Of a stretch of 64,000 nt of DNA, positions 2,531 to 56,557 are shown piece after piece. Below the pieces are notes generated by a model, which was not told the origin of the DNA, searched no databases, and saw nothing but the letters and a program-made list of their open reading frames with translations. Every line of letters begins with the position of its first letter. Position 1 is the stretch's first letter. This DNA is from Zanthoxylum bungeanum (Eukaryota; Streptophyta; Magnoliopsida; Sapindales; Rutaceae): positions 227,245 through 291,244 of the forward strand of contig SKCR01018435.1 in NCBI GenBank assembly GCA_019454045.1, given 5' to 3'. The position numbers and the translations under genes are program-made.

Positions 2531-4536
2531 TCAGCTGATGAAGTCGATGAGTCCTTAAAGTGTTAATGCAACACAGCCGTTGGTTTACTTGATGTGACCA
2601 GGTGAGAGCTGAAGTGCTAGTATGGCGGGAAAGGATTTTCACGTGATTCGAGTCAACCCAAGGGTGACACATGGGAGAGGGAAACTCTTTATTGACTTTA
2701 AAATTTCCAGGTTTGTGGGGCATTGAGGAAAGCTCTCTATCTGGGTAACTTTTTTGTTCCTTCCTTGTTTATATTCATGTTCTTGCTATTCTTCGTAGAA
2801 TAGGTTTGTTTGATACGTGGGGGTAGAGAATTGTATGTTGAATTGTGTTTGTGGATTAGGGTAGCTTCAACCTATTTGAGGGAGGAATCCTTTAGTGCAA
2901 TATGTTTTTGAGTATTCCCCAAGATGTTAGATGGAAGGGAGTCTAAGTCGGATATTGGAGGTTTTGGCGGCTGGTGTAACACCCCGTCAGAGGCAGGAGA
3001 TAGGATTGACTTATCTCCATAAGTCTCTAAATTTACAAAAAAAAATCTGGCATGCTGTATCCTAAAACAAGACAACTTGGATCTCAGTCCAGCATCAAAA
3101 CGGATATGAAATTAACATCATATATCAAAATGGACCTCATGTCCACACCAACATATCAAAATCATCACCTAAGGGCTCCGTGCTCATATCATATATCAAC
3201 ACTCAAGGGCTCTGTGCCCACAACATCATAAACAATCAAAATATTTAATTAATACAAACGATGTGCTCAGCATGACAAACAAAATAATAAATCAAATATT
3301 CTAATCTTCTAAAACTTCTCTCATGACACTTGCAAGAGTGACTGCCACTTGGGTGATCCAGGTCTTAAGCATGGCTTCAAAGTTGAAATGGTTGACTCAT
3401 CTGGTAGCCAACCTGAAAAACTAACAAACTGGTTTGGTGTGAGTTATAAAACTCAGTAAGTAACCATGCTAGTATTATAACAAATAAGTCAAATCTAAAC
3501 TTCAAACAAACAAATCAAACATATCAGTAGTTTATCAGTATTACTAAATTATTACAAGTTCAGATTTTATTAACTTGTTATTATCCTTTATCCTTAACCC
3601 ATGTCAAGCTTTCATATTTACATATCTATATATGCGCTAATCTAATAACTAACATCCAAAGCATACAAATCAAAGCATGGATAGTACATCGTTTAATATC
3701 AAATACACTTGAATCACATGAAACATGAAGTCATACATATATATTTTTATCACAATTATCCATCTTTGAAATATGATTAAATCGACAACTTATACAAATT
3801 ATCTTCTATTCGGATACAACTATCTTCAATACCAAAACAAACTTACTTTAACTCTTAACAAATTTTCTTCAATACCAAAAATCTTATGATAACTTAACAT
3901 TCGTATCTCTTTCACAATATACGTATATACAATACAAACTTAGCATATATATATTTTATACAAACTTAGCATCTTATGGTCACACCGGTTTACATGTCAT
4001 TCTTTCATTCCATGCACACATACACCATCCATACATATCACATGATCTATCATACATACACATATACTCAAGCATCACAACAGTCAAGGCATCCAGGAAC
4101 ACACAATCAAGACAACACATACATATGAGCTAGCTCACATATACAATGCTCGTATGGGACTCAATACATATTTTAGAATAGGTATAAAATGAATGTCGTC
4201 CGAACAGATTTCCTAACTAGCTCGGCTACTACTCCACGGAATCATCAACCAATGAAACATACACACATGCATACATATCATGTGTCATAAGCTCATTACA
4301 CGATTTCTCATACACAGGCATATACATGACAAACATTGTTTAATCATTCAAAATCGTCATACACATACGTTTATATATATAATATACATATGAATATACT
4401 TATTAATTCGAATTTTGATACCATGACCTTTACAATCATCACATTCTTTACTTATCAATCAACATTCACCATTCATATACGTAATCAATCAGTCACGAAC
4501 TTCCATCACTCGGAAAAGACTTAGCCTATACCAGCT

Positions 4537-6612
4537 TGACCGGCGTAATCACACGCGTATAACGCAAGCACACGTATCGTTCAAGTAGTATAAAAAGTAT
4601 CGATCCCACGAGGACTTAATACATAATTTATTAATTATATGAGGTCAAATGATTACTAGTATCTAACATGTTGATTGATTGATTTGAAATGTGGATGATT
4701 TTAAACTTAAAAAAATATGTAAATAAAATTGCTCAAAATTAAATTAAATGAAATTCAATATTAAGAAACTATTCAGGGTTGTGAATCTTTCCAATATCTT
4801 TTAAAAGATGGAGTGGTTATTTCATGTTTGTGTAATATATCGGTTTACTAACCTGGAACACGAAATTATTCAAAAGCCTCTGTCGATGGTCAGATGCAAA
4901 TACCCAGTATAACCCAATTGAACCATATGTCTATGTCAACCAAATTATATGGATTCATTAAGGTTAAGTTCCAATTGTGGTTACCCCCGCCCGACAGGTA
5001 TATGTCTATCATGTAAGGAAATCTATTAAAGGGTTATCTATCTTCAAGGAAGATCGTGGGCTATTAAGTCTAAGACTGAAACCTAAAATTCATTTGTCAA
5101 GTTTATTTTAGATTTACCAGATCAATCTTATTAGTGGCCAGTTAACAAGAAACATTAAGTTTAAGACTTAATAAGTAAACCTTTAAATTACCAAAACTAT
5201 AAAATAACTCCTTATAAACCGGTGATATTGGAATTCATCACAACCCCAGATAACTAACTTAGTTAAGACACATAACTAGGGCTAGTAAAAACTTAAAAAT
5301 AAAAGACATAAAGTAAAATGCTGAAAAGTAAATGCGGTAAAGTAAAATGCTGAAAAGTAAAATTACAATAAAATAAAATGATAGGGGTTAAAAGATCTAC
5401 TTTTACCACTACTATTTTAGATATCTCCCTTAATATAATATATTAACTTGTGATAACATTACCAACTAGCCATATAGGCGGTAACCTGATTAAGTCAAAT
5501 TAAGTCCGACCTGTCATAAAGGCGGTATCAATATTTGTCCATAAACCAGCTATATAGGCGGTAAATTACCAACCGACCAACCAGGTGGTATCATTACTTA
5601 GTCAAATTAAAACCAGTTTATAATTGATTACCAACCGACCAATATAGTGGTATCCTTGTTAAGTCAAATTTTAAGTAGTGAATATATTATAATTAAGGGA
5701 GATTAATCTAAATAGCAGTAATAAAAGATTTACCTTTCACCCTAGCAGGGGGAAGTTACCTCCTCATGTTGAATAATAAAAAATGAAAAGTAAAGAAAGT
5801 AAATTATTATTACAGAAAGTAATTAAAATTAATTAAAAAACTGAAATTAAAATAAACTAGATATATTTACATCAGAGAATTCAGAGAGGAAGGTACATCT
5901 GAAACTGAAATCTCGAGCTGAATTTATAGTCGTCGATAGGCTCTCCGCGTCGCGACGCGCAAGGATCACGCATCGCGACGCGATATGTGTCACGCTCTGA
6001 TTGGTTCCGCCGAGATTCTTATCCGATGACGTTGCATTTTGGATGATTAATTCAATAATTGAGCTGATGTGGCAGTGATGTGGCAATGAAGTGGCGACAC
6101 GTGGTGATAACAATTGTCGGCACCGTAGGATTATGACACGTGGCGCGCTATGATTGGCTGATGATGATGTGGCGGTGACGTGGCAAAGTTGACTCGGTCT
6201 TCTGCTGATATGGTGATGACGTGGCTGACACGTGGGGTGACACGTGGTGATGGTGATTGTCGGCACCATAGGATGATGACACGTGGCACGACGCACGTTA
6301 GCAGATGGGCTGTGATATTGACACGTGGCACGACGTACGTTACCAAAGTCAAACTTCTTAGATTTAGACACGTGTCCCCGGCGCATGTTAGCATGGAACG
6401 ACGCACGTTAGGCGGCGCGACGCGCCAAAAGATGATTTTGCCCTTTTTTCTATTTTTCACTGTTTTGTCCCCAAATCACCTCTAGAATGTCCTGAAACTT
6501 TATTTATCTCCAAAATAACACAAAACACATCAAAATATTCACAAAACTCAAGAATCTATTCAAAATATTAGGTCAAATGAGTGGGAAATAGTGATACATT
6601 TACCACTCATCA
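4537..6612 (-). mobile_element. Solo LTR of Athila-like family A
   Basis: Minus-strand LTR beginning TGATGAGTGG and ending CGCCGGTCA, 2,076 bases long, flanked by a perfect 5-bp duplication CAGCT (4532-4536 and 6613-6617). It matches the LTRs at 46622, 54490 and 34386 throughout. No internal sequence remains, so it most likely arose by recombination between two LTRs. Its U3 holds a run of CACGTG motifs and one exact CCAAT-N9-CCACG element (6139-6157, reverse orientation), as in its relatives. Open frames of about 100-180 residues inside it are by-products of the GC-rich U3 and are not genes. Confidence 0.92.
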
Positions 6613-10250: not shown

Positions 10251-11087
10251 TGACCGGAGTTGACCAACGTAATTACACGTGTATAACGTAAGTGCACATA
10301 TCGTTCAAGTAGTATAAAAAGTAACGATCCCACGAGGACTTAATACCTAAGCTCTTAATTTATGAAGCCAAATTTTTACAAGTATCCAATAGATTGGTTG
10401 TTTTATTGGATGGTGACTTTAAACTTAAAACAAGTAAATAAAATATTGCGAAAGTGAATTAAAGGAAAATTCAATATTATAAAACTATCTAGGGTTGTGA
10501 ATCCTTCCAGAATCTTTTAAAGATGAAGTAGTTATCTCATGTTTGTGTAATATATTGATTTACTAACCTGGAACACGAAATTATGCAAAAGCCTCTGTCG
10601 ATGGTCAGATGCAAATACCCGGTGTAACCCAATTAATCAAATGTCTATGTCAACCAAATTACCTGAATTCATTAAGATTAAGTTCCAATTGTGGCTACCT
10701 CCGCCCGACAGGTATATGTCTATCCTATAAGAAAATCTATTAAAGGGTTATCTATCCTCAAGGAAGATCGTGGGCTATTAAGTCTAAGGCTGAAACCTAA
10801 AATTCCTTTATCAAGTTTATTTTAAATTTACCAGATCAATCTTATTAATGGCCAATTAACAAGAAACATTAAGCTTAAGACTTAATAAATAAACCTTTAT
10901 ATTACCTAAACTATAAAATAACCTCTTATAAAATGGTGATATTGGAATTCATCACAACCCCAGATAACAGACTTAGTTACGAAACATATCTAAGACTAAT
11001 AAAAGCTTAAATAAAATAAAAAACATAAATTAAATGCTGGAAATTAAATAAAGTAAATGCTGGAAATTAAATAAAGTAAATTCTGGA
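10251..11087 (-). mobile_element. Truncated family A LTR (R/U5 end only)
   Basis: The sequence follows the solo LTR at 4537 closely from its terminal TGACC... through the tRNA-distal half, then stops abruptly at about 11083. There it joins copia C LTR sequence. Three copies of a unit like AAATGCTGGAAATTAAATAAAG mark the join. The remaining LTR half, including the promoter, is absent. No left target duplication can be tested. Confidence 0.8.
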
Positions 11088-32588: not shown

Positions 32589-32820
32589 TGATGAGTGGTA
32601 AATCTATCACTATTTCCCACTCATTTAATCTAATATTTTGTATAGTTTCTTGAGTTTTGAGAATATTTTAATGTGTTTTGTGTTATTTTGTAGATAAATA
32701 AAGTTTCAGGACACTCTGGAGTTGATTTGGGCCAAAACAGTGAAAATTGGAAGAAAATGGCATTTTGGTAATTTTCTACGTCGCGACGCCAAGACCTTCA
32801 GTGTCGCAACGTCTAACGTC
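32589..32820 (+). repeat. Element A2 5' LTR fragment
   Basis: Matches the first ~230 bases of the 3' LTR at 34386, up to the GCGTCGCGACG repeats, then stops. Confidence 0.88.
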
Positions 32821-33048
32821 TTCCGCACAGCAGCAACAACAACTACCTCAGCCACCACCAGGATCATCAAGGCCTCGCACTATTTCTCAGGAAGTTCGTC
32901 GTTTGGGATCTCGTGTGGATTATATGCTTCAATATAACAGAGCAATCGGCCATGCACTACAACAAATGGCAAATGATTTGCACATTACTGTTCCAGAGTT
33001 CCCTGACCCTCCATCTGACGACAGCGATGAGGAGGAGGCTGATGATTA
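32821..33048 (+). pseudogene. C-terminal remnant of element A2's last ORF
   Basis: Encodes a Q/P-rich start (QQQQQLPQPPPG), then ISQEVRRLGSRVDYML, NRAIGHALQQMANDL, and an acidic end SDDSDEEEADD before TAA. The texture matches the tail of the plant transposon protein that Athila/Tat-like elements carry between pol and the 3' LTR. It lies at exactly the place where A1 has its LOG-like ORF: both end shortly before a hairpin and a GGTTTGGGGG run. By chance the upstream LTR fragment is open in the same frame, giving a 100-residue chimeric frame from 32747. Confidence 0.7.
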
Positions 33049-33094
33049 AAAACTCAGGTACTATTGTTCCCTTATTTTGATTATGTTTTGTAAC

Positions 33095-33130
33095 GCATTG
33101 GGGACAATGCTAAGTTTAGGTTTGGGGGTA
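33095..33130 (+). other. Internal hairpin plus polypurine-like run (A2)
   Basis: GCATTG-GGGA-CAATGC can form a six-pair stem with a four-base loop, followed 7 bases later by AGGTTTGGGGGTA, nearly the same as the true polypurine tract at 34372. Confidence 0.75.
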
Positions 33131-33601
33131 TGGGTCTATTTTTAAATTTTTTCAAAAATTCTGTTAAACTTTTTCATGTGTTTGATTTCAGTAATTTTAT
33201 TTTTCGTAATTTACATTGTTGTGTGTTGTTAAAATCGAAAAAAAAAATATGTGTGTCTGATGATTTAATTGTTTGTTTAGCTAAAAAGTTTTAGGAAAAG
33301 ATAAATGCTAATTTCACTTTTATCCCTAATTTGAATTTCTTATCTAGGTCAGACTCGTGCGCACTTTTAACAATAGTCTTGTAAGTAGTTAGATAATAAA
33401 GAATTAAGAAAAGTGACTAGTTAAAATAATCAGTGGTTAATGAATGACCGTTTGCTTGAGTTTCTGTTTCTGTCTGCAATTATTATGTGCGGTATGTAAA
33501 AAAAAAAAACTAAACCAAGCAAGTACTTAGTAACCGAGCATCTTGCCTCAGTAAGCAGTGATAGTTCGCGTCAAATGGGAAAGCTTGTGTTAGTTTTTAA
33601 A

Positions 33602-33845
33602 CATCCGAGATCCGGGTGATTAAGTCCATAGGGGTGTTTTAACACCTAGTGCCCTAAAACCAACTGGTTTGGGAGTCACTGGCCCAAAGCTCGTTACATG
33701 GATTGAAGATGCTGCAAAAATATATATATCTCAAGTCTGAGTAATTAAGTCCGTAGGGGTGTCTTAACACCTGGTGCCCTAAAGCCAACTGGTTTGGGAG
33801 TCACCGACCCAACACTCGCTACATAGACGGAAGGTATTGTATATA
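33602..33845 (+). repeat. Two direct ~120-bp repeats in A2 3' region
   Basis: Units at about 33602-33727 and 33728-33845 share the core ACTGGTTTGGGAGTCAC and the phrase GGGGTGTYTTAACACCT. A1 has the same pair at 53702-53945. Confidence 0.85.
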
Positions 33846-34346
33846 AATAAAAAATAGAGAAAAATCAAAGAAAAAATCAGAAAAATGAGAAAAATTATTC
33901 CATTGCTACAAAAATGTGTGAATCTGATAGAACTTTAGGACAAAAATATTACTCTCTTATCAACTGCATTTATGACTGTTGTGGGCAAAAATAAGTTGTT
34001 TAATATTTTGTTGGCTATGTATATGAAAATGGTAAAAATAATCGGAGAATTTACTTATTCAGTAATTTAGAATAAAACAAACAACTAGTAACTTGGAGTA
34101 GAAGTTTCACCTGATTAGTCACTAACATCTTTATTCTCTTTTCGCTTCTCTTTTTGCTTTTGTGTGCATTAGTTTTACTACCTTTTTACTTTTGTAAAAT
34201 GTTTGTGGGTATCATTGCTGTAAACCCTCACGAGACTACAACTCATCCACTAGGGACACCTAGGGGTTTAAAGGCTTGTTGCATATGCTAAATACAACCG
34301 TGATCCCTACGAAAGTGGCTTAGTTAAATTTTATTATGTTATTTTA

Positions 34347-34385
34347 TTTTGCTCAAGGACTAGCAAAATGTTAGGTTTGGGGGTG
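34347..34385 (+). other. Hairpin and polypurine tract of A2
   Basis: TTTTGCT (34347-34353) pairs with AGCAAAA (34362-34368). The polypurine tract AGGTTTGGGGGTG follows and abuts the 3' LTR. Confidence 0.8.
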
Positions 34386-36483
34386 TGATGAGTGGTAAAT
34401 CTATCACTATTTCCCACTCATTTAACCTAATATTTTATATAGTTTCTTTTAGTTTTGAGAATATTTTGATGTGTTTTGTGTTATTTTGTAGAAAAATAAA
34501 GTTTCAGGACACTCTGGAGGTGATTTGGGCCAAAACAGTGACAATTGGAAGAAAATGGCATTTTGGTAATTTTCTGCGTCGCGACGCCAAGACCTTCAGC
34601 GTCGCGACGTCTAACATGCGTCGAACAGTGCTAACGTGCGCCGGGTCCACAAGTCAGAATATGAGAAAAGTTTGACTTTGCTAACGTGCAATATGCCACG
34701 TGTCACCATCACAACCGATCTACTAACATGCGTCGTGCCACGTGTCATCATCCTACGATGCCGACAGTCGCCATCGCCACGTGTCGCCACGTGTCACTCC
34801 ACGTCATTGCCACGTCATTATCCACATCACCAGGTTGATCGAGTCAAACTGGCACGTCATCGCCACGTCATCATCAACCAATCACAGCGTGCCACGTGTC
34901 GTAATTATATGGTACCGACAGTCACTTTGCCACGTCATCGCCACGTCGCCGCCATGTCAGCATCAATCATTGAGTCTCTAATCCTTATCTGAAATGTGGC
35001 GGATAAGAATCTCATCGACCAATCAGAAGCCGCCACGTGTCATAATAATTGAAGCCCAACCACTTTGCCACATGTCACCTTATCATCTTATCCAGAATCT
35101 GTAAACAGACGAACCAGAGCGTGCCACGTTGACAGAAGTTGGCGTAGCGACGCCAAGACCTTCAGCGTCGCGACGCCCAGAGACTACCAGGGCCTATAAA
35201 TTCAGCTCGAAATTTCAGTTTTAGAGGTATCACTCTCTCTCATCTCTTTGATGTAAAGAGAGAGTTTCTCTCTCTAGTTTCTTTTAGTTTTTAGTTTTTT
35301 TTTTTTAGTTTTTAGCTTTGTAAATAATTTTAATTACGTTTTGTTAATATAGTAATTTACTTTTTTTACTTTTTACAGTTTTTACTATTCACTACGAGAA
35401 GGTAACTTCCCCAGCTATGGTGAAAGGTAATTCTTTTACTATTACTATTTAGATTAATCTCCCTTAAAAATAATATATTCACTATTTAAAATATTGACTT
35501 AAAAAGGATACCGCCAGATTGGTCGGTTGGTAATTCATTTTAATCTGGTTCAAACCTGACTAATAAAGGATACCGCTAGATTGGTCGGTTGGTAATATTA
35601 TCACAAGTTTATATATTATTTTATGGGAGATATCTAAAATAGTAAATAGTAAAAGTAATTCCTTTTACCTTAGCATTTTATTTTATTTTATTTTACTTTT
35701 CAGCTTTTACTTTATGTCTTTTACTTTTAAGTTTTTACTAGCCCTAGTTATATGTTAGTTATCTGGGGTTGTGATGAATTCTAATATCACCGGTTTATAA
35801 GGGGTTATTTTATAGTTTGGGTAATTTAAAGGTTTACTTATTAAGTCTTAAACTTAATGCTTCTTGTTGTCTGATCACCAATAAGATTGATCTGGTAAAT
35901 CTAAAATGAACTAGACATAGGGATTTTAGGTTTCAGCCTTAGACTAATAGCCCACGATCTTCCATGAGGATAAATAACCCTTTAATAGATTTCCTTACAG
36001 GATAGACATATACCTGTCGGGCGGGGGTAGCCATAATTGGAACTTAAACTTAATGAATCCAGATAATTTGGTTGACATAGACATATGGTTCAATTGGGTT
36101 AAACTGGGTATTTGCGTCTGACCATCGACAGAGGCTTTTGCATAATTCGTGTTCCAGGTTAGTAAACTGATTTATTACAAAAACATAAAATAATCACTTC
36201 ATCTTTTAAAAGATATTAGAATGATTCACAACCCTAGATCTTTGTGTCTTTTTTATTTTCCTTAGTATTTTCTTTTGTCTTTTTATTTATATTTATTTAG
36301 CAATTCTACAATCAATCAAATCAATCAAGTAATCATTCTCTTCTCCCTCAATTAGATATTTGTAAATAAATAGATTCAACAATTAATAACAACAGTAGGA
36401 ATTAAGTCCTCGTGGGATCGATATTTTTATACTACTTGAACGATACGTGCGCTTGCGTTATACGTGTGTGTTTACGCCGGTCA
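34386..36483 (+). repeat. Element A2 3' LTR
   Basis: 2,098 bases, TG...CA ends, same family as 46622, 54490 and 4537. The U3 carries CACGTG and CCACGTCA motifs and two exact CCAAT-N9-CCACG elements (34878-34896 and 35019-35037). A TATA-like CTATAAATTC follows near 35193. Confidence 0.92.
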
Positions 36484-46616: not shown

Positions 46617-46621
46617 CCTCA
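46617..46621. repeat. Target-site duplication of element A1 (CCTCA)
   Basis: CCTCA at 46617-46621 matches 56553-56557 exactly on the other side of the element. Confidence 0.9.
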
Positions 46622-46970
46622 TGATGAGTGGTAAATCTATCACTATTTCCCACTCATTTAGCCTAATATTTTGTTAGTTTCTTGAGTTTTGTGAATATTT
46701 TTATGTGTTTTGTGTTATTTTGTAGATAAATAAAGTTTCAGGATATTCTGGAGGTGATTTGGGCCAAAACAGTGAAAATTGGACGAAAAGGGCATTTTGG
46801 TAAATTCTCGCGTCGCGACGCCAAGACCTTCAGCGTCGCGACGCCTAACGTGCGCCAAATAGTGCTAACGTGCGCCGGGTCCCAAATCAGAATCTGAGAA
46901 AAGTTTGACTTTGCTAATGTGCACCGTGCCACATATCACCATCACAACCGATCTGCTAACATGCGACGTG

Positions 46971-47316
46971 CCACGTGTCAGCATCCTACGGTGCCGACAG
47001 TCATCATCGCCACGTGTTCCACGTGTCACTCCACGTCATTGCCACGTCATCAGCCACATCACCAGGTTGACCAAGTCAAACTGCCACCTCATTGCCACGT
47101 CATCATCAGCCAATCAGGAAGTGCCACGTGTCGCAATCCTACGGTGCCGACAGTCTCTTTCCCACGTATCGCCACATCACCGCCACGTCACAGCCACGTC
47201 AGCATCAATCATTGAGTATCTAATCCTTATCTGACACGTGGCGGATAAGAATCTCATCGACCAATGAGAAGCCGCCACGTGTCACAATTATTGAAGCCCA
47301 ACCACCTCGTCACGTG
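46971..47316 (+). promoter_or_regulatory. G-box and ERSE cluster in A1 5' LTR
   Basis: Seven CACGTG motifs (starts near 46972, 47011, 47020, 47125, 47235, 47276, 47311) lie within 350 bases, with five CCACGTCA motifs between them. Two sites have exactly CCAAT, nine bases, CCACG: 47110-47128 and 47261-47279. CACGTG and CCACGTCA are ACGT-core sites for plant bZIP/bHLH factors. CCAAT-N9-CCACG is the ER-stress response element bound by NF-Y with bZIP28-type factors. A TATA box follows about 120 bases downstream, so this is where U3 enhancers should be. Confidence 0.75.
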
Positions 47317-47435
47317 TCACCTTATCAGCTTATCCAGAATCTACAAACAGACGAACTAGAGCGTGCCACATCGACAAAAGCTGGCGTAGCGATGCCAAAG
47401 GCCCTGGCGTCGCGACGCTGGAAGCCTACCGAGGC

Positions 47436-47445
47436 CTATAAATAG
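47436..47445 (+). promoter_or_regulatory. TATA box of A1 5' LTR
   Basis: CTATAAATAG, a canonical plant TATA box, just downstream of the G-box/ERSE cluster. The 3' LTR has the same sequence at 55237-55246. Transcription would be expected to begin about 30 bases later, which sets the U3/R border. Confidence 0.8.
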
Positions 47446-48791
47446 AGCTTCAAATTTCAGTTTTAGATGTACCACTCTCTCTCATCTCTTTAATGTAAAG
47501 AGAGAGTTTCTCTCTCTACTTTCTTTTAATTTTTAGTTTTTTTAGTTTTTTTTAGTTTTGTAATTAATTTTAATTACGTTTTGTAATAATAGTAATTTAA
47601 TTTTTAATTTTACTTTTTACAGTTTTTACTATTCACCATGAGGAGGTAACTTCCCCAGCTAGGGTGAAAGGTAATTCTTTTACTATTACTATTTAGATTA
47701 ATCTCCCTTAAAAATAATATATTACTATTTAACCTGACTAAAAAGGATACCGCCAGATTGGTCGGTTGGTAATTAAACTTTCTTACCGCCTATATGGCAG
47801 GTTCATGGACAAATCTTTTTACCAATTTAAGCCTTAATGGCTGGTTGGACTTAATTTGACTTAATCAGGATACCGCCTATATGGCTGGTTGGTAATGTTA
47901 TCACAAGTTTATATATTATATTATGGGAGATATCTAAATTAGTAGTAGTAAAAGTAATTCCTTTTACCTTAGCATTTTATTTTATTGTAATTTACTTTTC
48001 AGTATTTTACTTTATGTCTTTTATTTTCAAGTTTTTACTAGCCCTAGTTATGTGTTGTAACTAAATTAGTTATCTGGGGTTGTGATGACTTTTAATATCA
48101 CCGTTTTATAAGGGGTTAGATTATAGCTTGGGTAATATAAAGATTTATTTATTGAGTCTTAATCTTAATGCTTTTTCATTAACTGGCCATTAATAAAATT
48201 GAACTGGGAAACTTAAAATGAACTAGACATAGGGATTTTAAGTTTAAGACCTTAGACTCAATAGCCCACGATCTTCCTTGAGGATAGATAACCCTTTAAT
48301 AGATTTCTTACAGGATAGTAATATACCTGTCGGGCGGGGGTAGCCATAATTGGAACTTAAACTTAATGAATCCATATAATTTGGTTGACATAGACATAAA
48401 GTTCAATTGGGTTAAACTGGGTATTTGTGTCTGACCATCGACAGAGGCTTACACATAATTTAGTGTTCCAGGTTAATAAATCAATATATTACCCAACTTT
48501 AATATAACCACTTCATCTTTAAAATGATATTGGAAGAAATCACAACCCTAGATAGTTTTTAATATTGAATTTTCTTAAAACCTATTTTCGACAATTTTAT
48601 TTACTTGCTTTTAAATTTAGAATCGTCACCATTTCAAATCAATCAATCAACCTTTGTTAGATACTAGTAATCATTTGACCTCATAAAATTAATAGATTAG
48701 ATATTAAGTCCTCGTGGGATCGATATTTTTATACTACTTGAACGATACGTGCGCTTGCGTTATACGTGTGTGTTTACGCCGGTCAAGTTTT

Positions 48792-48809
48792 TGGCGCCGT
48801 TGCCGGGGA
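48792..48809 (+). other. Primer-binding site of A1 (tRNA-Asp)
   Basis: TGGCGCCGTTGCCGGGGA, six bases after the LTR, is complementary to the 3' end of plant tRNA-Asp, as expected for Athila-type elements. Confidence 0.9.
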
Positions 48810-48915
48810 CTTATTTATCTTTTACTATTAGTTTAGGGGTTAGATACGTTACTTGTATCTAATTTCTTTTTACTTATTTTTTTTTTTCTTGTGTTTCAGG
48901 TCTCTCAGAAACTTC

Positions 48916-50985
48916 ATGAGACGAACTAGAAGCTTTGAACTCCGACCGCTTGACCCTTGGGAAATTGAAAGAACCATCAGACAGTTGAGAAGGGAAAGGC
49001 GAGAAGGCCAAGAAGCTTTAGTCAACATGGAACCTGAACCTTTGATCGTTGCACCACCAATTCCCATTCGAGACATAACCATTCCGATGGTTGATAGACT
49101 CATTTCCTATATTGTACTTCCTCCATTACCAGCAAATGCGTGTGACATCAAAACATGCATTCAGATGATTCAGCACTCAGTTCAGTTCAGGGGGAATGCA
49201 ACTGAAGATCCTAATGCCCACATCAGTAACTTCCTGGAAGTTTGCGGCACTTTTAATTACAACCGAGAAGTGGAAGAAGCAATGAGATTGCGAGTTTTTC
49301 CATATTCCCTAAAGGACATAGCTAAAGCTTGGCTACATTCACTACCAGCAGGTTCTATCACAACTTGGAACACTTTAGCCACCAAATTTCTTGCAAAGTA
49401 CTTTCCACCAGCCAGAACCGGAAAGCTGAGGAATGACATCACATCCTTTGTACAACAAGATTCAGAATCCCTCTGCGAAGCTTGGGAAAGGTATAAAGAT
49501 TTACTCCGGAAATGTCCTCACCATGAGATTCCAAAATGGCTTCAAGTCCAAACATTCTATAATGGACTTTCTGGAATAATGAGAACCACAATCGATGCTG
49601 CTGCTGGAGGAGCCTTGATGGCAAAAGGAGAAGATCAAGCCTGAGACCTAATCGAAGAAATGGCCAACAAAAATTCCTTATGGCCAACGGAAATGAGCAT
49701 GATCCAAAGAATTACAGGAATTTATGAAAGTGGAGCCAATACAGCAGTGAACGCCAAGCTAGATCAGATATGCAAATTTATGGAGACTCTTACCACTAGA
49801 TCCACAAGTTCACCATATGGAGGATCACCATAGTCGAACCAACTTGAAGAAACGGTGAATTTTGTCAACAATTTCAACAGACAGTGGAACAATCCATATT
49901 CCAACACCTACAACCCAGGGTGGAGGAATCATCCCAATTTTTCATGGAGCAATAATTCAGGCCAACAGCAGAACTATCCACCACATGAATTCCAAAACAA
50001 AAGCCAGGAGCAGGTAAATGAACCAGGAATAACAGAAGTGTTGACCCACTTGAAAAAGATAGAAGCAAAACACGACTCTCAAGCAGCAAGATATGATGCT
50101 ATGTTTCAATCCCAAGCAGCATTAATTCAAAGTCAATCAGCTTCCATTAAAGCACTGGAGAATCAAATTGGACAACTGGCAAATGCTCAGAGTTACAGAC
50201 CGCCAGGTACCCTTCCTAGCAACACAGAGCCAAATCCAAGGAACATGGGGAATGAGCAATGTCATGCCATCATGTTAAAAAGCGGTACTGAAATCAACAA
50301 AGATGTTGGAGCCAAAACAGCTGCTGAGGAAGTTCCAAAAGAAACAAAGCAACAGATGGAGGAAAAAGAAGCAAAGGAAAAAGAACAGATCATTCCACCT
50401 CCACCTTTTCCTCAACGTCTTCAGAAGAACAAATTGGACAAGCAGTTTTCTCGGTTCCTGGAGATCTTCAAAAAGCTGCATATCAACATTCCATTTGCAG
50501 AAGCGTTGGAACAAATGCCCACCTATGCCAAATTCATGAAAGACATTCTTTCACGAAAACGGAGATTGGGAGATTATGAGACAGTAGCATTGATAGAAGA
50601 ATGCAGTGCCATCATTCAGAGGAAACTTCCCCCGAAGTTGAAAGATCCTGGCAGTTTCACTGTTTCTTGCGTCATAGGAGAACATAACTTTGGTAAGGCT
50701 TTGTGTGGTTTAGGAGCGAGTGTTAACTTGATGCCTTTTTCTATTTTCAGGAAATTAAAGATTGGAGAAACAATGCCAACTTCAGTCTCACTGCAACTTG
50801 CTGATAGAACGCTCGTATTTCCAAGAGGCGTAGTTGAGGATGTGCTGGTCAAGGTTGACAAATTCATTTTCCCAGCAGATTTTATTGTCCTTGATATGGA
50901 GGAAGACGCAGACGTGCCAATCATCCTGGGAGACCATTCTTGGCTACAGGTCGAACCATTATTGATGTACAAAAAAAGAGATTAA
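48916..50985 (+). pseudogene. Element A1 gag-protease
   Basis: One frame from the ATG at 48916 (MRRTRSFELRPLDPW) runs to 50985 with two internal stops, TGA at 49642 and TAG at 49831. The gag part has AMRLRVFPYSLKDIAKAWL, SITTWNTLATKFLAKYFPP and YKDLLRKCPHHEIP. After the stops come an Asn/Pro-rich linker, a coiled coil (LIQSQSASIKALENQIGQLA) and PPPPFPQRLQ before the aspartic protease at about 50690-50935. The protease motif reads ALCGLGASVNLMP where family members have ALCDLGAS, so the catalytic Asp is Gly. A one-base deletion near 50930 shifts the ILGRPFLATGR segment out of frame. An acceptor-like TTTCAG lies just upstream of the start. Confidence 0.88.
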
Positions 50986-51383
50986 CCATGAGGGTACATG
51001 ACCAAGAAGTAACATTCAATGTTTTAAAGGCCATGAATTTCCCAGATGATGAAATGAAGGAGGAATGTTTCAAACTCGATGTGATACACAGTACCATTCA
51101 GAACTCCAATGCAATGCAAAGTTCTACTGACAAACTTAAAACATGTCAATTGCCTGTGGAGCCTAAAGATAAAGCGTCTTTTGTACTGAAGGAGCCAATT
51201 CTTGCACTACAAGCAACAAAAGAGAAAAAGTTCCACCAGCTCAACGAATTGGAGGAATTTCACAATCAGCCTTTTGATGATGCCAAATTGTACAAAGAAA
51301 AGGGCAAGAAAAGACATGATGAGAAGTTAGTGCGCATACAACTGGAACCAGGGCAGAATGTACTGTTAAACAAATCAAGGTGA
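50940..51383 (+). pseudogene. Protease end fused to integrase C-terminus (A1)
   Basis: After the frameshift the protease tail continues (ATGRTIIDVQKKRLTMRVHD) with ~75 residues of linker. At about 51200-51240 it changes directly to QLNELEEFHNQPFDDAKLY and WHD-like KKRHDEKLVRIQLEPGQNVLL. This is the integrase region just after the catalytic core of Athila-like elements. About 1,000 residues of RT, RNase H and integrase core normally found between are missing. The join is in frame, consistent with an ancestral deletion that stayed readable. Confidence 0.8.
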
Positions 51384-51577
51384 AATTCTTCCCATGGAAG
51401 CCAAAATCACGGTGGTCAGGTCCATTTGTGATCACCAAAGTTTTACCAAATAGAGCCGTTGAGATACATGATCCTGACGCTAACAAAACTTTCAAGGTTA
51501 AAAAACGTGTCAAGCACTACTGGGGAGAATCATTTGAGCGACAAAAAGAAAGTGTTACACTTTCAGATCCAGCTTAA
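51380..51577 (+). pseudogene. Integrase C-terminal domain (A1)
   Basis: Continues one frame over: KFFPWKPKSRWSGPFVITKV, AVEIHDPDANKTFKVKKRVK, HYWGESFE. This is the GPF/Y-type C-terminal domain of gypsy integrase. It is followed by GGGAGGCAACCC (51629), a landmark after pol in Athila-like elements. Confidence 0.85.
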
Positions 51578-51697: not shown

Positions 51698-51699
51698 AG
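51698..51699 (+). other. Candidate splice acceptor before the accessory ORFs
   Basis: A long T-rich tract ends in TTTTTGCAG, 16 bases before the ATG at 51716. Env-like ORFs of Athila elements are thought to be made from spliced transcripts, so this is a plausible acceptor. The donor was not located. Confidence 0.4.
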
Positions 51700-51715: not shown

Positions 51716-52015
51716 ATGGAAGATGCTCTCGCAAATCTTCACAAGCAATTTCCTTCTCTCCCTAAAAAATCTCTGATGAAAGTTTACAAAGCTCGCTTAG
51801 AACGGATGAGATTATTGATGATCAAAGGTATTCCTACTGACATTCGTTGGTTAATTGAAGCACGGGTTCGATTGGCAGGTGAGTCTTCTGACTCTTTTAT
51901 TTCACATATGTCTGGTTTAGGAAAGAGCATATATGCTAAAAAGAGAAGAGCCAAAAGAATGTGTGTTTGTTATAAATGTGCTCGCATATTTTGTAATACT
52001 CGTTGTCGTTCTTAG
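51716..52015 (+). CDS. Accessory ORF 1: basic, cysteine-rich 99-residue protein
   Basis: Starts MEDALANLHKQFPSLPKKSL. The middle is helical and basic (KARLERMRLLMIKGIP). The end combines a basic cluster KKRRAKR with a Cys pattern C-x-C-x2-C-x4-C-x3-C (MCVCYKCARIFCNTRC). The arrangement, a basic run directly followed by a Cys cluster, resembles the small nucleic-acid-binding proteins of some plant flexuous RNA viruses (Betaflexiviridae), but the resemblance is at motif level only. It lies in the env-like position of the element. I do not recognise it as any standard Athila protein. Function unknown. Confidence 0.5.
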   Translation: MEDALANLHKQFPSLPKKSLMKVYKARLERMRLLMIKGIPTDIRWLIEARVRLAGESSDSFISHMSGLGKSIYAKKRRAKRMCVCYKCARIFCNTRCRS

Positions 52016-52017
52016 GA

Positions 52018-52263
52018 ATGGTGTCCGATAACCGCGAAGATAAGATTAACTTCATTAGGGATGGCTTGAGTAAGGAGTCTTTGGATGACATATCTAAAAC
52101 TCTTGAGACGCATCCCAGTGGATGTGTGTATCATGAAATTCGCATGTTATATGCACAATTCCAAAAGGAAAGACAACTGTTAAGTCTCGGGAATCTGACT
52201 CAAAAAGACCCTGTTTGCCAATTTATAAGAAAATTGGATGGGAAGCTTGTCCCTGACGCATAG
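52018..52263 (+). CDS. Accessory ORF 2: 81-residue protein, unknown
   Basis: ATG lies two bases after the stop of accessory ORF 1 (TAGGAATG), in another frame. The protein is hydrophilic: MVSDNREDKINFIRDGLSKE, then HEIRMLYAQFQKERQLLSLG and a C-terminal FIRKLDGKLVPDA. No domain recognised. The tight stop-start spacing could reflect reinitiation, or a frameshift that split one longer protein. Confidence 0.4.
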   Translation: MVSDNREDKINFIRDGLSKESLDDISKTLETHPSGCVYHEIRMLYAQFQKERQLLSLGNLTQKDPVCQFIRKLDGKLVPDA

Positions 52264-52522
52264 ACGTCAATCAAGCCGTTACTTTTCTTGTAAATATTAT
52301 ATCTCTTTGTCTTTTCTTAATAATTGTGATTTGTTTTGTTGTTTTCTTTTTATTTTCTCCGACAGAATCCAGACCTTTTTGACTATCACGATATTAATTC
52401 GCTACTAATCGTCCTCTGGAAGATACTTGTGCTATTTTTACTCACCCTTTTCAGGTACTATAAATTCAGCCCGTCATTGCACTTTTGAAGGCATCCAGAG
52501 TTGAAAAAGAAATACATAAAAA
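52264..52522 (+). other. Spacer before the LOG-like ORF
   Basis: T-rich with two acceptor-like sites (CCGACAG near 52366, TTTTCAG near 52456). Sequence after the second looks like a transcript leader (GAAATACATAAAAAATGG), possibly the 5' UTR of the captured mRNA. Confidence 0.45.
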
Positions 52523-53176
52523 ATGGAAGCCACTTCAAGAAGACGAGTTGAGAACATCTGTGTGTTTTGCGGTAGTAGTGTTGGTACTAAACCACAATAC
52601 GTAGAAGCAGCACAGGAATTGGGTCGAGTCTTAGCTGCAAGGAATATGCACTTAATATATGGCGGAGGTAATCTCTGACTTATGGGGATCGTTTCAAAGG
52701 CTGTACAGGAGGGAGGCAGTCATGTTTTGGGAATCATCCCAAAACCCTTGGCAGAGGCAAATCTTATTGGATCATCAAACGGAGAGGAACTAATCGTGCC
52801 AGGTATGTCTGAACGACTGGTAGAAATGATTAACCGTGCTTATGCTTTTATCGCTTTGCCAGGTGGCTTGGGTACATTGGAGGAAATTTTTATAGTTCTA
52901 TCTTGGGCGAACCTGAACATACACCAGAAACCCTTGGACTGTTTAAACGTTGATGGATTTTATGATTTTCTTTGTGTGTTTCTTGATGATGCTCGGAGAA
53001 ATGGGTTCGTGTCAAAACCTATGAAAGAACTCCTCTTCACTGCCAGAACTGCTCCGGATCTAATAGACCAACTCATAGCCTATGAACCACAAGTTGACCC
53101 TATCCTTTCAAAGATAAATTGGTCCGAGGACGATCGTGGTAAGAGGCGTCGAATTAATCTGGATCTTAACCTTTAA
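52523..53176 (+). pseudogene. LOG-like cytokinin riboside 5'-monophosphate phosphoribohydrolase
   Basis: A 217-codon frame with a single nonsense codon (TGA, codon 52, 52676-52678). LOG enzymes release active cytokinin bases from their riboside monophosphates in the cytosol. Seen here: VCVFCGSS-type start (ICVFCGSSVGT, residues 12-22), YGGG (46-49), PGMSERLVEM with Arg98, the family signature PGGLGTLEE (113-121), and LNVDGFYDFLC. The TGA sits where LOG proteins have the Gly of GGGSVGLMG, one base change from GGA. The Lys usually following Arg98 is Leu. The frame has no introns, although plant LOG genes have several, so a processed transcript was captured. The C-terminus, RGKRRRINLDLNL, joins a basic cluster to an LxLxL EAR-type motif, unusual for this family as far as I know. 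In A2 this position holds a different ORF. Confidence 0.9.
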
Positions 53177-53274: not shown

Positions 53275-54450
53275 AATTAGTTGATCAGTACCTTTTTTTT
53301 AGTTTGTGTGTTATTTTTATTTTTAGTCCAAAATTTTTCGAAAAATACAAAAAAAAAATTGAAAATTTTCAAAAATTACAAAAATATTTTGGTTTTTTTA
53401 TTTGACTAAAAAGTGAAATTGGTAAGAGATAGCTGAGTAAGGAGTTTCCACTCCTGAGACGTATCTCAAACCTATTTCGAAACAAGTTAATTTTTGTTTA
53501 TTTCATTTTGAATTATTTAATTTGTGAATTCTCCTTAAAACGGACTAAAATGGATCTTCATATGCTCAGTTGACATATTATCAACATATATAGTAACATA
53601 CGGACATGAGCTAAAATTGAAAAGTTTGTAATATTCAGTGCTCTAGTTTAATTGGAGGAAACATCTCAAAAACAATGGAGAAAAAAAAAAAAAAAAAAAA
53701 CGTCTGAGATCCGAGTTATTAAGTCTGTAAGGGTGTTTTAACACCTAGTGCCCTAAAACCAACTGGTTTGGGAGTCACTGGCCCAAAGCTCGTTACATGG
53801 ATCGAAGATGCTGCAAAAATATATATATCTGAAGTCTGAGTAATTAAGTCCGTAGGGGTGTCTTAACACCTGGTGCCCTAAAGCCAACTGGTTTGGGAGT
53901 CACCGACCCAACACTCGCTACATAGACGGAAGATATTGTATATAAATAAAAAATAGAGAAAAATCAAAGAAAAAAATCAGAAAAATGAGAAAAATTATTC
54001 CATTGCTACAAAAATGTGTGAAATCTGATAGAACTTTAGGACAAAAATATTACTCTCTTATCAACTGCATTTATGACTGTTGTGGGCAAAAATAAGTTGT
54101 TTAATATTTTGTTGGCTATGTATATGAAAAATGGTAAAAATAATCGGAGAATTTACTTATTCAGTAATTTAGAATAAAACAAAACAACTAGTAACTTGGA
54201 GTAGAAGTTTCACCTGATTAGTCACTAACATCTTTATTCTCTTTTCGCTTGTCTTTTTGCTTTTGTGTGCATTAGTTTTACTACCTTTTTACTTTTGTAA
54301 AATGTTTGTGGGTATCATTGCTGTAAACCCTCACGAGACTACAACTCGTCCACTAGGGACACCTAGGGGTTTAAAGGCTTGTTGCATACGCTAAATGCAA
54401 CCGTGATCCCTACGAAAGTGGCTTAGTTAATTTATTTATGTTATTTTATG
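53275..54450 (+). repeat. A1 3' non-coding region with two direct ~120-bp repeats
   Basis: Units at about 53702-53825 and 53826-53945 share ACTGGTTTGGGAGTCAC and TTAACACCT. From 53702 the region is nearly identical to A2 (33602 onward). Before that, 53275-53700 is specific to A1. No protein recognised. Confidence 0.8.
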
Positions 54451-54489
54451 TTTTGCTCGAGGACTAGCAAAATGTTAGGTTTGGGGGTG
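54451..54489 (+). other. Hairpin and polypurine tract of A1
   Basis: TTTTGCT (54451-54457) pairs with AGCAAAA (54466-54472), then AGGTTTGGGGGTG abuts the 3' LTR. Confidence 0.82.
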
Positions 54490-56552
54490 TGATGAGTGGT
54501 AAATCTATCACTATTTCCCACTCATTTAACCTAATATTTTGTATAGTTTCTTGAGTTTTGTGAATATTTTGATGTGTTTTGTGTTATTTTGTAGATAAAT
54601 AAAGTTTCAGGACATTCTGGAGGTGATTTGGGCCAAAACAGTGAAAATTGGACGAAAAGGGCATTTTGGTAAATTCTCGCGTCGAGACGCCTAACGTGCG
54701 CCAAACAGTGCTAACGTGCGCCGGGTCCCAAATCAAAATCTGAGAAAAGTTTGACTTTGCTAACGTGCGTCGTGCCACGTGTCACCATCACAGCCGATCT
54801 GCTAACATGCGACGTGCCATGTGTCAGCATCCTATGGTGCCGACAGTCATCATCGCCACGTGTGCCACGTGTCACTCCACGTCATTGCCACGTCATCAGC
54901 CACATCACCAGGTTGACCAAGTCAAACTGCCACCTCATTGCCACATCATCATCAGCCAATCAGGAAGTGCCACGTGTCGCAATCCTACGGTGCCGACAGT
55001 TTCTTTCCCACGTGTCGCCACGTCACCGCCACGTCACAGCCACGCCAGCATCAATCATTGAGTATCTAATCCTTATCTGACACGTGGCGGATAAGAATCT
55101 CATCGACCAATCAGAAGCCGCCATGTGTCACAATTATTGAAGTCCAACCACCTCGCCATGTGTCACCTTATCAGCTTATCCAGAATCTAGCGACGCCAAA
55201 GGCCCTGGCGTCGCGACGCTGGAAGCCTACCGAGGCCTATAAATAGAGCTTCAAATTTCAGTTTTTGATGTACCACTCTCTCTCATCTCTTTGATGTAAA
55301 GAGAGAGTTTTTCTCTCTACTTTCTTTTAATTTTTAGTTTTTTTAGTTTTTTAGTTTTGTAATTAATTTTAATTACGTTTTGTAATAATAGTAATTTAAT
55401 TTTACTTTTTACAGTTTTTACTATTCACCATGAGGAGGTAACTTCCCCAGCTAGGGTGAAAGGTAATTCTTTTACTATTACTATTTAGATTAATCTCCCT
55501 TAAAAATAATATATTCACTATTTAAACCTGACTAATAAAGGATACCGCCAGATTGGTCGGTTTGGGAATTAAACTTTCTTACCGCCTTAATGGCTGGTTG
55601 GACTTAATTTGACTTAATCAGGATACCGCCTATATGGCTGGTTGGTAATGTTATCACAAGTTATATATTATATTATGGGAGATATCTAAATTAGTAGTAG
55701 TAAAAGTAATTCCTTTTACCTTAGCATTTTATTTTATTGTAATTTACTTTTCAGTATTTACTTTACCGTATTTTTACTTTATGTCTTTTATTTTCAAGTT
55801 TTTACTAGCCCTAGTTATGTGTTGTAACTAAATTAGTTATCTGGGGTTGTGATGACTTTTAATATCACCGTTTTATAAGGGGTTAGATTATAGCTTGGGT
55901 AATATAAAGATTTATTTATTGAGTCTTAATCTTAATGCTTTTTCATTAACTGGCCATTAATAAAATTGAACTGGGAAACTTAAAATGAACTAGACATAGA
56001 GATTTTAAGTTTAAGACCTTAGACTCAATAGCCCACGATCTTCATTGAGGATAAATAACCCTTTAATAGATTTCCTTACAGGATAGGAATATACCTGTCG
56101 GGCGGGGGTAGCCATAATTGGAACTTAAACTTAATGAATCCATATAATTTGGTTGACATAGACATAAAGTTCAATTGGGTTAAACTGGGTATTTGTGTCT
56201 GACCATCGACAGAGGCTTACACATAATTTAGTGTTCCAGGTTAATAAATCAATATATTACCCAACTTTAATATAACCACTTCATCTTTAAAATGATATTG
56301 GAAGAAATCACAACCCTAGATATTTTTTTAATATTGAATTTTCTTAAAACCTATTTTCGACAATTTTATTTACTTGCTTTTAAATTTAGAATCGTCACCA
56401 TTTCAAATCAATCAATCAACCTGTTAGATACTAGTAATCATTTGACCTCATAAAATTAATAGATTAGATATTAAGTCCTCGTGGGATCGATATTTTTATA
56501 CTACTTGAACGATACGTGCGCTTGCGTTATACGTGTGTGTTTACGCCTGTCA
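54490..56552 (+). repeat. Element A1 3' LTR
   Basis: 2,063 bases, matching the 5' LTR. Differences visible by eye: one GCGTCGCGACGC unit with its 17-base spacer is missing near 54680, ~45 bases are missing near 55188, and several substitutions. One ERSE is intact (54956-54974); the second has CCATG for CCACG (55107-55125). Confidence 0.92.
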
Positions 56553-56557
56553 CCTCA

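Follow-up and report, generated by a model that had tools for sequence, protein, structure and literature searches.

It is still unsettled why plant LTR elements retain additional genes, and the question is raised in concrete form by an element in the genome of Zanthoxylum bungeanum that encloses an open reading frame (ORF) of the LONELY GUY (LOG) family. The window, by which we mean the whole stretch of 64,000 nucleotides that was analyzed, holds this frame close to the 3′ end of the element. Was the gene dropped into the element late, has it been amplified as a chance passenger, or does the element lineage itself maintain it? Comparisons of sequences from many copies and many species lead us to regard LOG as very probably a selected accessory gene of an old Athila-like Ty3/gypsy lineage, and the pattern suggests that the element may use this selected gene to influence host cells.

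Architecture of the window element

The features of the element, with the basis of each assignment in parentheses, are as follows:

46617..46621, no strand, left target-site duplication CCTCA (sequence)
46622..48785, + strand, 5′ LTR (direct repeats, LTR ends)
48792..48809, + strand, primer-binding site TGGCGCCGTTGCCGGGGA (sequence)
48916..49644, + strand, gag (PF03732), broken in the window copy (Pfam, E=1.6e-23)
50640..50985, + strand, protease region (homologous stretch in copy L049, protease matches below cut-off)
51240..51577, + strand, presumed integrase C-terminal end (spacing to the protease region in other copies)
51716..52260, + strand, NABP-like ORF, frameshifted in the window copy (182 aa in intact copies)
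52365..52454, + strand, two acceptor-like sites upstream of LOG, ending at 52365 and 52454 (ad hoc score)
52523..53176, + strand, LOG-like ORF (217 codons, one in-frame TGA; C-terminus GKRRRINLDLNL)
53690..53939, + strand, direct repeat of 2 x 125 bp, 80% alike, in the 3′ tail (repeat search)
54478..54489, + strand, polypurine tract (sequence)
54490..56552, + strand, 3′ LTR (direct repeats, LTR ends)
56553..56557, no strand, right target-site duplication CCTCA (sequence)

The gag domain, LTRs, 5-bp duplication, primer-binding site, and polypurine tract are Athila (Ty3/gypsy) traits that are common to other LTR elements as well; the primer-binding site itself we take to resemble that of Athila. 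The L049 stretch homologous to the protease region scores 17.2 bits against a cut-off of 24.3 and 14.8 against 20.3. The segment at 51240..51577 is presumably the integrase C-terminal end, as judged by its likeness, and the Pfam scan returned no match for it. The initial annotation had placed LOG between the integrase C-terminus and the polypurine tract, inside LTRs flanked by CCTCA; the LTRs, the duplication, and the polypurine tract stand, while the NABP-like ORF intervenes and the integrase segment is a presumed one.

The LOG frame is intronless and broken by a single TGA at codon 52. Its translation contains ICVFCGSS, YGGG, Arg98, and PGGLGTLEE, the part after the stop matches PF03641 (Lysine_decarbox, Pfam) at E=5.7e-33 (114.3 bits vs. 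a cut-off of 27), and the closest PDB match is Arabidopsis At2g37210 (2a33, E=3e-39), all of which upholds the original description of LOG hallmarks over 217 codons with one nonsense change. The domain scores 122.7 bits against the same cut-off of 27 in an intact copy, L009, which shares with the window both the PGGxGTxxE motif and Arg98, presumably the functional motifs of the LOG cytokinin-activating family.

Other members of the element family lie nearby in the window. A second element consists of an LTR fragment (32589–32819), a tail (33599–34385), and an LTR (34386–36483); no LOG match was found within 32589–36483, making it a LOG-less family copy. LTR fragments of the same family occupy 4537–6612 and 10261–11049 on the reverse strand.

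LOG-carrying elements in the genome

Further copies were sought in the window's own assembly (3.96 Gb in 51,709 contigs), where search candidates are word matches as opposed to copies and the scored sets were picked by score. The LOG DNA query yielded 1738 first-look candidates, and 40 of 40 scored matches, window included, cover LOG positions 1–654 at 96–100%. A canonical LOG piece used as query produced 52,187 candidates, with 150 scored matches that are intronless, span the full piece length, and are 48–52% identical; a further protein search gave 150 scored intronless matches at 56–60% over the piece length. Both sets were taken to be element LOG, a minority of the matches having been read individually. 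Copies free of the TGA do exist: in the search with the canonical piece, 148 of the 150 scored matches have no stop in the matched part. The pattern PGGYGT gave five matches, and all five proved on reading to be element-type copies. In all, 20 long copies (at most 10 kb each), 19 shorter ones, and a few from other searches were read.

The elements can be partitioned into two types that carry LOG at the same 3′ place. Type A (the window, L013, L015, L017, and others) comprises gag, protease, the presumed integrase end, the NABP-like ORF, and LOG. In the window, L013, L015, L017, and L049, the protease region and the presumed integrase end lie merely ~255–265 bp apart, which leaves no space for reverse transcriptase, RNase H, and the integrase core. 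Neither reverse transcriptase nor integrase core was found between the two in these five copies or in L050, and in L049 a 452-codon open frame spans both the protease region and the integrase end. Because the absence of reverse transcriptase is common to L013, L015, L017, L049, and L050, it represents the structure of the type and not decay alone. The earlier description of a wrecked gag-pol thus applies to the broken window copy, while the missing reverse transcriptase belongs to its type.

Type B (L009, L010, L014, L020, L023, L027, and others) has ~1.8–2.0 kb from the 5′ LTR to LOG, and no gag or pol domain was found in it. This stretch holds an ORF—408 codons at 4354–5577 on the + strand of L020, 442 codons at 4423–5748 on the − strand of L023—in neither case with a Pfam domain above cut-off; the 442-codon ORF weakly resembles the C-terminal part of type A gag (E=4e-7). 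Across the family, many copies have an extra sense ORF between gag-pol and the 3′ LTR. Both outer LTR ends were located in two of the 20 long copies, L009 and L018. The type B element L009 is flanked by its own CTAAT duplication, with LTRs that differ at 82/2136 sites; the two 5-mers flanking L018 differ in the automatic reading.

The DNA around LOG is shared along with the gene. The 160 bp upstream of it are 0.59–0.96 identical to the window in 12 of the 14 copies with the start found, and LOG is present in all three copies fetched by NABP similarity (L049–L051). The proposed search for further elements with LOG at the same place therefore uncovered many, of two types, and the shared position, the homologous flanks, and the separate CTAAT duplication of L009 identify LOG as element cargo, as first proposed. 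A later independent retrocopy into the element is ruled out, since LOG and its flanks are common to other copies; incidental reading showed no second duplication bordering LOG itself.

Several individual copies merit description. L020 and L024 are type B elements 98.5% identical over ~7.8 kb, with different bases directly before the 5′ LTR, and are likely young sibling insertions. Among the loci compared in this respect (L009–L051), there is one allele-like duplicate pair, L021/L022 (99.9% over 10 kb). Older retro-LOG copies show ~80% (L057) and 62–64% (L058) identity to L009, and L053 has an NABP piece followed by LOG, the order seen in type A.

Purifying selection on the LOG gene

Variants in 43 distinct LOG copies, which remained of 44 after removal of a duplicate, were classed against a real copy instead of a consensus. 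Single-copy variants comprise 121 replacement and 48 silent changes, as opposed to 14 and 39 among variants present in at least three copies (Fisher p=6.6e-9; odds ratio 0.142, 95% interval 0.071–0.286); two-copy variants, 21 replacement and 14 silent, stayed outside the test. Transversions alone point in the same direction (6/8 shared vs. 59/21 private), and the replacements common to at least three copies are mostly conservative. The difference recurs within type A (n=15; singletons 59/35, shared 7/16, p=0.0089) and type B (n=25; 67/38 and 10/22, p=0.002), the remaining three copies being in neither type. Any alleles that escaped notice would make the shared variants look more neutral. In the protease–integrase stretch, for which just six copies were compared, private and shared variants do not differ (p=0.6).

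As shared changes are mostly silent and private ones look neutral, the amplifying lineage has kept LOG under purifying selection. We read these counts as probable neutral decay after insertion combined with purifying selection in the amplifying lineage, pol-less carriers included, and the past selection on the cargo that the initial annotation had raised is borne out by them. Alternatively, LOG could be a passenger that multiplied by chance after a single capture, its frames still open solely owing to a recent burst. The window LTRs diverge at merely 36 of 2040 aligned sites (1.8%), and many LOG frames are open (18/43 intact; 6/15 in type A, 11/25 in type B), as such a burst predicts. This account is contradicted, however, by the shared and private counts given above and by relatives in four eudicot orders that keep the clade and mostly its tail (described below), and we consider it highly improbable.

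A second accessory ORF in type A elements

The NABP-like ORF encodes 182 residues when intact and is open in 9 of 14 copies. In L017 its product exceeds the Pfam cut-offs of two viral profiles, Viral_NABP (30.6 bits vs. 23) and Carla_C4 (29.9 vs. 20.9). It shares a basic cluster and a C4 finger with the carlavirus cysteine-rich nucleic-acid-binding proteins (PF01623, PF05515), from which it differs in having long parts beyond the match and a function that is predicted. Homologues number 374 among 603 candidates, from sources that include Xanthoceras, Populus, Acer, and Rhamnella. Across 14 copies, singletons are 50 replacement and 15 silent, compared to 48 and 49 for variants in at least two copies (p=5.5e-4) and 37 and 38 for those in at least three (p=9.1e-4). 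The ORF is thus under selection as well, with a constraint weaker than that on LOG.

As an alternative to kinship, the basic stretch and C4 finger may have converged in a protein unrelated to those of carlaviruses, an explanation that we hold to be the less likely of the two yet a serious one. The profile similarity covers ~45–85 residues at modest scores, five family members scanned gave both cut-offs in three (L017, P0121, P0137), one in P0167, and neither in P0144, and the fold model is poor (pLDDT 59). Against convergence stand the two profiles above cut-off in L017 and the PF01623 assignment that all of the best 120 listed homologues bear in the database. According to PMC12172455, the cysteine-rich proteins of carlaviruses suppress silencing, and the one from chrysanthemum virus B acts as a transcription factor that brings about hyperplasia.

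Searches of viral contigs gave no LOG or NABP match apart from one LOG-family piece, 35% identical, on contig IMGVR_UViG_3300024581_001484 (L052), and comparison of NABP with phage records gave no match. Two JGI entries, the LOG homologue P0118 and the NABP homologue P0142, each lie on a 4511-base contig, possibly one and the same.

Age and probable origin of the cargo gene

With the intact L009 LOG as query, 7746 proteins at E<=0.001 were retrieved among 8000 scored candidates. The best 120 of these are 49–91% identical to L009; 70 have exactly 217 residues and 92 have 205–221. Their sources include Populus (Malpighiales), Xanthoceras (Sapindales), Reevesia (Malvales), Paulownia (Lamiales), and Diplodiscus, all known here as protein sequences and not by element context. 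A tree of 33 retro-LOG rows (two from the genome itself and 31 drawn from the best 120 relatives), 25 canonical plant rows, and two bacterial rows places the retro-LOG rows in one group (99/96) and the canonical rows, with LOG3 and LOG8, in another (99/95). The canonical rows are mainly the nearest relatives of LOG3, so a closer canonical source for the cargo may exist.

The retro-LOG proteins also have a distinctive C-terminus. A basic cluster followed by LxLxL within the last 12 residues occurs in 88 of the best 120 relatives, compared to 0 of 120 canonical proteins, and some of the 32 relatives that lack it are fragments. The leucine columns are near constant and the intervening columns vary. 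LxLxL is given as an EAR repression motif in PMC9956375; by motif, the tail would be NLS- plus EAR-like, both motifs being short. Taken together, the separate eudicot clade, the distinctive tail, and the second selected ORF make the capture look old, to judge from these sequences.

A host LOG piece from the same genome, L061, the one such piece read, provides a direct comparison. It has introns at PG^GYG, at KPV^GLI, and after KLE, and its exons share 85% identity (89/105) with an Arabidopsis LOG3-type protein, compared to 45% (47/104) with the cargo. At none of these positions does the cargo have an intron, in keeping with the capture of a processed transcript that intron absence had first indicated, though not with a recent capture from the L061 gene. 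Arabidopsis LOG3 and LOG8 (2a33, 1ydh) share the fold family and the PGGxGTxxE core with the cargo, which differs from LOG3-type proteins in being ~44–52% identical to them, intronless, extended by the basic-LxLxL tail, and housed in LTR elements. Given this level of identity, the tree with its four eudicot orders, and the L061 comparison, recent capture from a host LOG, which the initial annotation had entertained, is not supported.

Selection might instead have acted on domesticated host genes, a host locus supplying the element copies through conversion, and the Populus database entries of relatives are indeed annotated as LOGL10 genes. The divergence of the intron-bearing L061 from the cargo and the selection visible within types A and B separately argue against this scenario, to which we assign a very small probability, if slightly more than to a mere passenger. 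The Xanthoceras gene models P0008, P0017, and P0032 have two LOG-like units per predicted protein and are perhaps element copies annotated as host genes. The host-LOG pattern WAQLGIHDKP matches the genome 20 times (one match read), in about six types with 1–5 copies each. The assembly may thus contain several haplotypes or reflect polyploidy, and some of the element places may be alleles too.

Enzyme or effector

If the LOG protein is selected, for which activity is it kept? Residues 4–203 align with the solved LOG3 structure 2a33 (E=8.8e-61), and the AlphaFold2 model of the L009 protein has a pLDDT of 87.5 and a pTM of 0.85, with residues 204–217, the tail, below 50 and disordered. All 39 aligned rows retain PGG, G117, E120, and E121, and 38 retain T118. 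Arg98, which we take to be the catalytic residue, is present in 34 and replaced by Q or C in the other five; K99 of canonical LOGs is substituted in 34.

Cytokinin activation is, on this evidence, about an even prospect as the selected function of the cargo. The fold could alternatively serve a non-enzymatic job, as a nuclear nucleotide-binding or TOPLESS-recruiting effector with an EAR-like tail, in keeping with the five losses of R98, the frequent replacement of K99, and the retention of the tail in most listed relatives. The invariant PGG, G117, E120, and E121, the 34 rows that retain R98, and a core modelled with high confidence weigh against such a role, which strikes us as rather unlikely.

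Proposed expression from the LTR

In the window's internal region, 386 AG sites were scored for a pyrimidine tract by an ad hoc score, the sites having first been noticed by eye. The top four lie directly upstream of gag (CAG ending at 48899), LOG (the two sites listed above), and the NABP-like ORF (CAG ending at 51699), the fourth tied with a site in the protease region. In four of the five type B copies, the third-highest score belongs to a site ~70 nt ahead of LOG; L013 and L014 have no LOG site among their top eight scores. In view of the ad hoc score, the choice by eye, and the absence from L013 and L014, spliced subgenomic mRNAs are what we infer for these elements.

Proposed mechanism and relation to known systems

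The explanation that we favor, with somewhat better than even confidence in the whole, combines an old selected LOG, expression from the LTR, cytokinin activation, and a push on host cells. A processed plant LOG transcript would have been captured once, long ago, and LOG would be expressed from LTR transcripts, probably as a spliced subgenomic mRNA. The protein would convert cytokinin-riboside monophosphates to active bases, and its disordered NLS- and EAR-like tail may direct it into the nucleus and perhaps bring it to a corepressor. The cytokinin output could then bias host cells toward division and a meristem-like state, to the benefit of transposition and inheritance. In type A, the NABP-like ORF may act alongside LOG as a nuclear zinc-finger or silencing-suppressor factor.

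A bolder proposal, which we advance as speculation more apt to fail than to hold, is that two genes carried by a retrotransposon lineage of eudicots form a host-reprogramming cassette. One would encode a cytokinin-activating enzyme that works in the nucleus and has a corepressor-type tail, the other a zinc-finger protein of viral type, and the hormone gene would be selected even in derivatives that lack a recognizable capsid or polymerase gene. Such a cassette would be a plant analogue of oncogene-bearing retroviruses. Maize Bs1 is a low-copy element without reverse transcriptase that carries a cellular gene; the present family resembles it in bearing a cellular gene in elements lacking reverse transcriptase, and differs in its high copy number and selected cargo.

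No LOG example was known to the initial annotation, but an earlier one is in print: PMC9289625 reports a YgdH (LONELY GUY) domain in LTR retrotransposon consensuses from two species of Citrus and, once the filter is relaxed, from Populus trichocarpa, in line with Steinbauerova 2011 as cited there. Those, too, are LOG-family domains inside plant gypsy elements, detected as a domain match in a screen; here we add copy-level selection, the basic/EAR-like tail, the NABP-like ORF, and pol-less carriers. The same paper describes Phalaenopsis gypsy elements that have an ORF for an AlkB m6A demethylase, likewise a host-like enzyme fixed as an accessory ORF; that enzyme is a different one and its activity was assayed there, whereas LOG activity here is predicted from sequence. 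In the literature searched, which included few subscription papers, we found no study of LOG selection, the LOG tail, or a carlavirus-like ORF in LTR elements, and "cytokinin" and "lysine decarboxylase" have 0 mentions in the main text of PMC7264820, PMC11963269, and PMC11728184. A LOG domain in gypsy elements is thus already published, and the selection, the tail, the second ORF, and the pol-less carriers were not met in that literature.

Implications

Since the copies themselves record selection on a gene whose biochemistry is known, the benefit to the element becomes testable, through cytokinin output, cell division, and inheritance. Relatives of the cargo are named as host genes in databases, as with Populus LOGL10, and counts of LOG genes may consequently be inflated. 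If the tail works, these elements would couple a hormone enzyme to transcriptional repression.
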